DNA of 55,373 nt from contig JAGWTH010000025.1 in the NCBI GenBank assembly GCA_028868995.1, positions 1 through 55,373 of the forward strand. The letters are read 5' to 3'. A program made the translations under genes and the position numbers. The notes under the pieces were generated by a model. That model saw only the letters and a list, made by a program, of their open reading frames with translations. It ran no database searches and was not told the DNA's origin. This document shows positions 35,279-36,879 of the stretch, one piece after another; the first letter of the stretch is position 1, and each line of letters begins with the position of its first letter. The DNA is from Burkholderiales bacterium. Its GTDB lineage: Bacteria > Pseudomonadota > Gammaproteobacteria > Burkholderiales > Burkholderiaceae_C.

Positions 35279-35665
35279 ATGACCAACCTGAACATCGTCG
35301 GCTTCGGCAAGGACGACATCGACAACGTCCTGGCCAAGCTCTCCGCCCGTGAGATCGACCAGCTGGCCTTCGGGGCGATCCAGCTCGATGGCAAGGGAAC
35401 CATCCTCAAGTACAACGCGACCGAGTCCAGCATCACCGGGCGTGAGGGCAAGGACGTGATCGGCAAGAACTTCTTCCGTGACGTCGCGCCCTGCACCAAT
35501 TCGCCCCAGTTCAAGGGCGTGTTCGACGCCGGCGTGCGGGCCGACAACCTGAACACGATGTTCGAATACGTGTTCGACTACAAGATGGCGCCCACCAAGG
35601 TGAAGATCCACATGAAGAAGGCGATCAGCGACGGCACGTTCTGGATCTTCGTCAAGCGCCTGTGA
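35279..35665 (+). CDS. pyp: photoactive yellow protein (xanthopsin), blue-light sensor
   Basis: A 128-aa PAS-fold protein that aligns with Halorhodospira PYP (125 aa) without gaps after a 3-residue N-terminal offset. All chromophore-pocket residues are present: Tyr45, Glu49, Thr53, Arg55 and chromophore-bearing Cys72 (equivalent to Y42, E46, T50, R52 and C69). Long identical blocks include LAFGAIQLDG, VIGKNFF, DVAPC, NLNTMFEY and FVKRL. Known: Cys binds p-coumarate by a thioester, and blue light isomerises it. The start follows AAGGAAC; a longer frame to 35183 is not supported. The next gene, pcl, overlaps the stop and makes the chromophore donor. Confidence 0.97.
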   Translation: MTNLNIVGFGKDDIDNVLAKLSAREIDQLAFGAIQLDGKGTILKYNATESSITGREGKDVIGKNFFRDVAPCTNSPQFKGVFDAGVRADNLNTMFEYVFDYKMAPTKVKIHMKKAISDGTFWIFVKRL

Positions 35666-36879
35666 ACCCCGCCTGGTGGCAGCCGCGAGGCACGCTGCGG
35701 CGGTTCGTCGGCGACCTGGTGGCCGACGAACTGGGGCGCCTGCGCCGCCGCGCCGTGCCGCGGCCGCAGCCCTGGGGCGACCGCCTGCGGCTGGACGCCG
35801 ACCTGGGCGTCGACTCGCTCGAACGGCTGTCCCTGGCCGCCGCCCTGGCCGAGGTGCTGCACCTGCACGAGTCGGGCATTGAAGACCACCTGCTGGCCAG
35901 GCGCACGTTCGGCGAGTGGCTGGACGTGGCGCAGGCAGGGCTCGCGCGATTCGACCAGCGCCTGACCTTCCGCACCTCGGGCAGCAGCGGCGCGCCCAAG
36001 CCCTGCCAGCACACCCTCGCCGGACTGCGGCAGGAGACGCGGCATCTCGCCACGCTGTTTTCCGGGCGCCGGCGGGTGCTCGGCGCGGTGCCCAGCCACC
36101 ACATCTACGGTTTCCTGTTCTGCGTCCTGCTGCCGAAGGAGCTGGGCCTGGAAGAGAACTGCTTCGTCGACCTGCGCGCGAGTACGCCCGCCTGGCTGGC
36201 GCGCCATGCCCAGCCGGGGGACCTGGTGATCGGCCACCCGGACTTCTGGGCCGCGCTGGCGCACACCGTCCCCGCGCTTCCACCCCGCGTGGAGGGGGTG
36301 ACGTCCACCGCGCCTTGTCCTCCCGATGTGGCGCAAGGCGTCGTGCGCGCCGGGCTGCAGCGGCTGGTGCAGGTCTACGGCTCCTCCGAGACCGGCGGCA
36401 TCGCCCAGCGGACCCGGCCCGATGAGCCCTACCTCCTCTTTCCGCACTGGAGGTTCGACCCGACCGACGCCGGCCGGTTGCTGCGGGAGCTGCCCGACGG
36501 CGTCGTCCAGCCTTTCCAGGCCCAGGACCAACTGCACCCGCGCGGCGAGCGGCATTTCGAGCTCGGTGCACGCCTGGACGCGGCGGTGCAGGTCGGCGGG
36601 ATCAACGTCTTTCCGGGGCGCGTGCGCGAAGTGCTGTGCCGGCATCCCGCCGTCCAGGACGCCGCCGTCCGGCCGATGCGCCCGGAGGAAGGCATTCGCC
36701 TGAAGGCCTTCGTGGTGCCGACCGCGGACGCCCCGGAGGAGCCCGAGCTGCTCGCCGCGCTCGACGACTGGGTCACGCGCGAACTCACGCCGGCCGAGCG
36801 GCCGAAGTCCTTCCGCTTCGGGCCGCAGCTGCCCACCGGCCCGACGGGCAAGCCGGTCGACTGGGCGATCTGGCTCTAG
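35662..36879 (+). CDS. pcl: 4-coumarate:CoA ligase for PYP chromophore activation
   Basis: A 405-aa adenylating enzyme starting at a GTG that overlaps the pyp stop (GTGA). The P-loop is TFRTSGSSGAPKPCQH (102-117), then YGSSETGG (239-246), with the C-terminal catalytic Lys397 in GPTGKP. It is shorter than plant-type 4CL (about 550 aa), as in the PYP-specific ligases of Rhodobacter. Residues 44-60 (LDADLGVDSLERLSLAA) look like a carrier-protein phosphopantetheine site with Ser52. It makes p-coumaroyl-CoA, from which Cys72 of PYP is loaded. No tyrosine ammonia-lyase gene is adjacent, so coumarate must come from elsewhere. Confidence 0.93.
   Translation: MNPAWWQPRGTLRRFVGDLVADELGRLRRRAVPRPQPWGDRLRLDADLGVDSLERLSLAAALAEVLHLHESGIEDHLLARRTFGEWLDVAQAGLARFDQRLTFRTSGSSGAPKPCQHTLAGLRQETRHLATLFSGRRRVLGAVPSHHIYGFLFCVLLPKELGLEENCFVDLRASTPAWLARHAQPGDLVIGHPDFWAALAHTVPALPPRVEGVTSTAPCPPDVAQGVVRAGLQRLVQVYGSSETGGIAQRTRPDEPYLLFPHWRFDPTDAGRLLRELPDGVVQPFQAQDQLHPRGERHFELGARLDAAVQVGGINVFPGRVREVLCRHPAVQDAAVRPMRPEEGIRLKAFVVPTADAPEEPELLAALDDWVTRELTPAERPKSFRFGPQLPTGPTGKPVDWAIWL

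Follow-up and report, generated by a model that had tools for sequence, protein, structure and literature searches.

We analysed a 55,373-nucleotide stretch, hereafter the window, of the genome of a Burkholderiales bacterium of the Ramlibacter group (assembly GCA_028868995.1, contig JAGWTH010000025.1, forward strand). It carries a cassette of two genes, one for a photoactive yellow protein (PYP) and one for its PYP-activating 4-coumarate ligase (PCL). The genes of the cassette, and the parts of the ligase on which the argument turns, are as follows:

35279..35665, + strand: pyp, photoactive yellow protein, 128 amino acids, from a TIGR02373 match and alignment with the Halorhodospira halophila PYP chain
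35662..36879, + strand: pcl, PYP-activating ligase, 405 amino acids, GTG start at 35662, matching TIGR02372 profile positions 7-384 of 386
35662..35952, + strand: carrier-protein-like domain of PCL, approximately residues 1-97, with predicted helices at 9-27, 52-66, 76-79 and 83-96
35815..35817, + strand: codon of Ser52, the proposed phosphopantetheine attachment site, in the motif DLGVDSLE, from conservation and alignment with the carrier-protein serine
35959..36876, + strand: short adenylation domain of PCL, matching PF13193 and, from position 170 of its 384-position profile, PF00501, with conserved residues

The cassette itself belongs to an already known type. The PYP scores 186.5 bits against the curated family model TIGR02373, above its cut-off of 143.05, and its chromophore pocket is complete: Y45, E49, T53, R55 and C72 are all present and are invariant across a 13-row alignment that includes the H. 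halophila chain. A previous reading of the sequence alone (the sequence-only reading) had described a PYP with every pocket residue overlapping a dedicated ligase, and both statements hold, the GTG start of pcl falling inside the last 4 bases of pyp (a 4-bp overlap). Like other PYP-activating 4-coumarate--CoA ligases, PCL matches TIGR02372 over nearly its full length and keeps the adenylation residues, but its score of 333.5 bits (333.2 in a second search) falls short of the naming cut-off, 334.7, by 1.2 bits. That cut-off is reached by only three ligases of the genus, one of which, from Ramlibacter cellulosilyticus (G008; 346.5 bits), is the nearest PCL relative on the tree, at 68% identity; among the best hits that bear names, it is Ramlibacter that supplies the closest PYPs and ligases. 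The adenylation domain starts near the P-loop, without approximately the first 169 positions of PF00501, and Lys397 is present.

What appears to be new relative to earlier knowledge, judging from alignments and structure models, is a built-in carrier domain across the PYP-ligase family. The approximately 97 N-terminal residues of PCL are predicted, from models and structural neighbours rather than a solved structure, to adopt the four-helix fold of an acyl carrier protein (ACP), with the serine of a D-S-L motif at residue 52, where predicted helix II starts. This serine aligns with that of carrier proteins and is conserved in 312 of the 313 aligned PCL rows that have a residue at the position, including the H. 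halophila enzyme (P0298, with the same D-S-L N-terminal motif); the rows that keep it span Alpha-, Beta- and Gammaproteobacteria, Desulfobacteraceae and spirochaetes. The sole exception, protein P0252, has phenylalanine instead, which may reflect a sequencing error or offer a natural experiment. Acyl carrier proteins (3gzl, 1l0i and ApeE, 9ls6) share the predicted fold and the D-S-L serine at helix II with the PCL N-terminus, whereas in PCL the carrier-like part is fused before a ligase. Aryl-polyene AMP ligases, which load a starter onto a carrier protein, have a similarly short adenylation domain (the example in this genome scores 126.7 bits with the PCL model), but their listed matches in the genus begin at about profile position 93-103, past the carrier-like part, barring a few cut pieces. 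The alignment with the acyl-CoA synthetase-like protein 4gs5 (358 amino acids), a short adenylating enzyme of solved structure, covers PCL profile positions 97-391, and so likewise starts past the carrier-like part. In open-access titles and the beginnings of abstracts, we found no description of a carrier domain in PYP ligases. Because a predicted carrier fold coincides with a near-invariant D-S-L serine, PYP ligases probably have a carrier fused to them and keep coumarate bound to the protein as a thioester.

The H. halophila operon, which has the same PYP pocket residues, consists of pyp, pcl and the tyrosine ammonia-lyase (TAL) gene tal, according to a 2025 survey (PMC12826048). By contrast, a search of the present genome (3.76 Mb in 81 contigs, completeness 99.67%) with the ammonia-lyase family PF00221 found no match anywhere in the assembly, and hence no tal gene of this family beside pyp-pcl or elsewhere. 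The sequence-only reading had noted the lack of a TAL at the locus; this extends to the whole assembly and to all 10 PYP-bearing genomes of the genus, none of which has a tyrosine-type lyase. Its alternative of a distant lyase fails for the known family, since no member was found in this assembly. Four of the 10 genomes are without the family altogether and six have a histidine-type lyase only, carrying SH at the substrate-selectivity site, which we take to be histidine-specific; we therefore rejected these lyases as TAL substitutes in the genus.

To place this in a wider context, we surveyed 59 PYP-bearing genomes (84 first listed, 24 removed by hand, including two duplicates, and L022 dropped). 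Ten had no PF00221 match and 11 had SH-site lyases only, giving 21 of 59 without a tyrosine-type lyase, among them all 10 of the genus; several surveyed genomes are metagenome assemblies, so these absences are subject to draft quality. The other 38 comprise 36 with matches, some in pieces, in the score range of pyp-adjacent lyases and two ambiguous Massilia genomes (G060 and G061); the score range is not decisive, since a 485-bit match in the PYP-negative genome G001 reads SH, and only part of the 36 were checked at the site. In the flanks of the best 80 of 153 pyp loci, a lyase-like gene occurs at 33 loci; at 31 of these it carries HL, YH or FH, and at L058 it is a fragment. Two Massilia loci have a lyase-like gene behind pcl that looks like a lyase under loss or change: at L009 (11294-12976) it is without the A-S-G core of the MIO cofactor and unalignable at the site, and at L006 (near 8881-9783) it scores in fragments only. 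In a quickly built tree of the ligases, with 55 labelled rows (L002 missing because its ligase fell outside the clustered set, G108 missing because no pcl was found in the locus, G060 and G061 unlabelled), lyase status needs at least 10 changes, and branches with high SH-aLRT values force seven of these. No alternative lyase recurred in 10 pyp loci, read by eye, of genomes without a tyrosine-type lyase. PYP genomes without a tyrosine-type lyase are common, which is likewise new. The 2025 survey reports TAL in 7 of 113 pyp operons and proposes genes elsewhere or coumarate uptake (PMC12826048); our gene-content survey suggests that, draft quality permitting, "genes elsewhere" fails for the 21 genomes.

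A second possible source of coumarate inside the cell is aryl-polyene synthesis, for which the genome holds a candidate cluster on another contig:

3169-15595 of locus L131 (G000 contig 17): aryl-polyene/xanthomonadin-type cluster, recognised with models and by eye

Models identify a carrier protein (NF006617, 133.3 bits), an AMP ligase (assigned by position and PF00501), a FabA/ApeI-like dehydratase, an acyltransferase, a ketosynthase (NF006618, 529 bits, with the cut-off at 407), another protein resembling a ketosynthase, and a FabG-type reductase (NF004200, 342.8 bits), the three scores all being over cut-off; an exporter, deacetylase, methyltransferase and glycosyltransferase were recognised by eye. 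We take NF006618 and NF006617 to mark aryl-polyene clusters. If the starter is 4-hydroxybenzoate, pathway logic would make p-coumaroyl-ACP the first extension product. Among the 21 PYP genomes that have no tyrosine-type lyase, 10 show the ketosynthase over cut-off, versus 13 of the other 38; the count of 10 is perhaps slightly low, as draft G033, without a ketosynthase over cut-off, has an aryl-polyene-type ligase match of 114.9 bits. Since 11 of the 21 have no ketosynthase over cut-off, we rejected this pathway as a general coumarate source. Eight PYP-bearing genomes (G062, G071, G075, G077, G085, G087, G094 and G104) have a match that scores like a tyrosine lyase and is located less than 10 kb from their aryl-polyene ketosynthase, and one coumarate supply may therefore serve both pigment and photoreceptor there. 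With no lyase found and the aryl-polyene route failing as a rule, uptake from outside is most likely the source of coumarate, an explanation reached by elimination only.

The cassette may have a regulator of its own, for which the candidate binding site is:

35256..35269, + strand: palindrome TTGTCCTACGACAA, putative operator, ending 9 bases short of the pyp start

The pattern TTGTNNTACNACAA has a single match in the genome, at this position. With at most one mismatch, the palindrome recurs upstream of pyp in seven of the nine other PYP genomes of the genus (L001-L005, L008 and L085; not L013 or L015), against a background, pyp-upstream matches included, of 21 matches on both strands of 1.38 Mb, L085 lying outside the counted loci. 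The pyp upstream flanks otherwise align poorly in the eight of nine relatives compared. A related palindrome, TTTGTCC-N-GGACAAA, is found with at most one mismatch in Massilia L006, L007, L009, L010 and L011, not in L012. Control of pyp-pcl is probably exerted by a regulator recognising the palindrome. Neither this palindrome nor the aryl-polyene cluster nor the carrier-like domain of PCL figured in the sequence-only reading.

The genes on either side of the cassette are:

33514..34371, + strand: CRP/FNR-type regulator, PF00027 and PF13545 over cut-off; context only
34364..35143, + strand: pseudouridine synthase (RluF-like), left neighbour, TIGR00093 over cut-off, best hit the RluF model, below its own cut-off
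37026-38672, - strand: groEL, right neighbour, recognised by eye from the translation
38719-39009, - strand: groES, right neighbour, likewise recognised by eye

Of the 60 genus genomes, 10 encode a PYP that scores over cut-off. Each of these 10 also has a PCL match covering the N-terminal part, which is split in two in G013 and in G059, and the only other genome with such a match is G037, in which pyp may be cut off, the ligase beginning 28 bases from the contig edge. The left-hand genes (ligase, CRP-type regulator and RluF) occur together in PYP-negative genomes too, and in one of these (G009, locus L150) groEL comes next after rluF, the interval having no pyp match. From this comparison of gene orders, the cassette is a variable two-gene unit in a conserved neighbourhood. 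The CRP-type regulator is matched in 53 of the 60 genomes, and in 49 of these the identity is at least 76%; because it is genus-wide, we rejected it as the PYP partner, and that it recognises the palindrome is only a guess. On the - strand at 23207-33053 lie branched-chain-type ABC transporter genes, two AMP ligases, one with an AMP-binding_C_2 domain and presumably PaaK-like, and a TctC receptor, by their predicted functions an acid uptake and activation set. This operon too was rejected as a partner, its ligase standing beside the CRP-type regulator in PYP-negative genomes. The groEL and groES genes are convergent to pyp-pcl, and relatives of them also occur in the pyp flanks of L002, L003, L008, L015 and L029. 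At L029 (7431-11608), from the gammaproteobacterium Mangrovitalea, which is without a tyrosine-type lyase, groES-groEL lies immediately upstream of the pyp-pcl pair, oriented otherwise than in the window, and we took the adjacency as chance. The analysis found no output partner for PYP. The sequence-only reading had seen no diguanylate cyclase nearby: a GGDEF domain (50.7 bits) does occur in a 7TMR-DISM protein encoded at approximately 41094-42860 (- strand), which corrects that statement as regards the domain; since its signature, read by eye, is ANTRF rather than GGDEF, the protein is probably a non-catalytic relative of diguanylate cyclases.

We therefore propose, at a probability of about 0.5, that this is a two-gene cassette whose ligase loads p-coumarate onto its own carrier-like domain and then hands it to the PYP cysteine. 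Since the genome search turned up no member of the ammonia-lyase family, coumarate is predicted to enter the cell from outside by uptake. The adenylation domain of this family forms coumaroyl-AMP from ATP and coumarate; the short domain of PCL would then move coumarate from coumaroyl-AMP to a phosphopantetheine arm borne by Ser52, from which Cys72 of PYP would take it by thioester exchange. Blue light would then drive the usual PYP photocycle towards a partner. A bolder extension, which we put forward tentatively and hold somewhat short of an even bet, is that every PYP ligase is a self-loading carrier-ligase fusion that delivers the chromophore as a phosphopantetheine thioester rather than as free coumaroyl-coenzyme A (CoA), and that here it might even draw coumaroyl units from the aryl-polyene carrier, making TAL dispensable.

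Several observations weigh against the proposed loading through a carrier arm, and they favour its main rival, the usual model in which PCL makes free coumaroyl-CoA, and in which the N-terminal carrier-like part is left over as a relic or serves, without an arm, for docking and stabilisation. The N-terminus is too distant in sequence from acyl carrier proteins to pass the Pfam PP-binding model PF00550 (14.1 bits against a cut-off of 20.8), which is why we call it carrier-like and not a PF00550 member, and Foldseek alone gives an E-value of 0.07. In the literature, the free-CoA route is the accepted account (PMC12826048), FlxY makes free coumaroyl-CoA (PMC3992019), and chemically activated coumarate suffices to load PYP in cells (PMC12393337). 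The uptake step, for its part, gains nothing from NF006588 (PRK09120), which is not over cut-off in this genome and is so in one of 60 in the genus. We take this model to represent the hydratase/lyase of coumarate breakdown; with it below cut-off in this genome, breakdown was rejected as a sign of uptake and there is no sign that the cell feeds on coumarate, and the suggestion in the sequence-only reading of a combined light and plant-phenolic sensor is left without direct support. The free-CoA model is a serious contender, to which we give perhaps one chance in three; against it, a single serine conserved in all but one row, across such distant taxa, is not what one would expect of a relic.

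The remaining alternatives concern where coumarate comes from, and whether it comes at all. Synthesis inside the cell, with hydroxybenzoyl-ACP extended once to p-coumaroyl-ACP and diverted to PYP, would suit a carrier-domain ligase, and the genome does hold the carrier protein, AMP ligase, both ketosynthase-type proteins, dehydratase and reductase in one cluster; given how patchy the ketosynthase is among the lyase-less PYP genomes, and that G015, 99% complete, has neither lyase nor ketosynthase, we regard it as unlikely. Less probable again is a family ammonia-lyase missed in a gap of the 81-contig assembly, or synthesis by an unrelated enzyme, which would lie beyond the reach of homology: the assembly is nearly complete, and the other PYP genomes of the genus are without a tyrosine-type lyase as well. 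Finally, the PYP might be without chromophore in the organism and the cassette decaying, as could be argued from a coumarate source that is not shown, the 50 of 60 genus genomes without a PYP over cut-off, and the joined rluF and groEL at L150. Both genes are open, however, pocket and adenylation residues are kept, and the palindrome has been retained although the sequence around it is poorly conserved, so we consider decay very improbable.

PYP is a model photoreceptor, and the loading of its chromophore is usually written as a reaction of coumaroyl-CoA with the apo-protein. The near-invariant carrier-type serine turns this step into a question that one point mutation can answer; it may explain both the shortness of these ligases and their dedication to PYP, and could aid the production of holo-PYP. 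The survey, in turn, bears on the puzzle of missing lyases: with 21 of 59 PYP-bearing genomes lacking a tyrosine-type lyase, many PYP sensors would need coumarate from outside or by another route.
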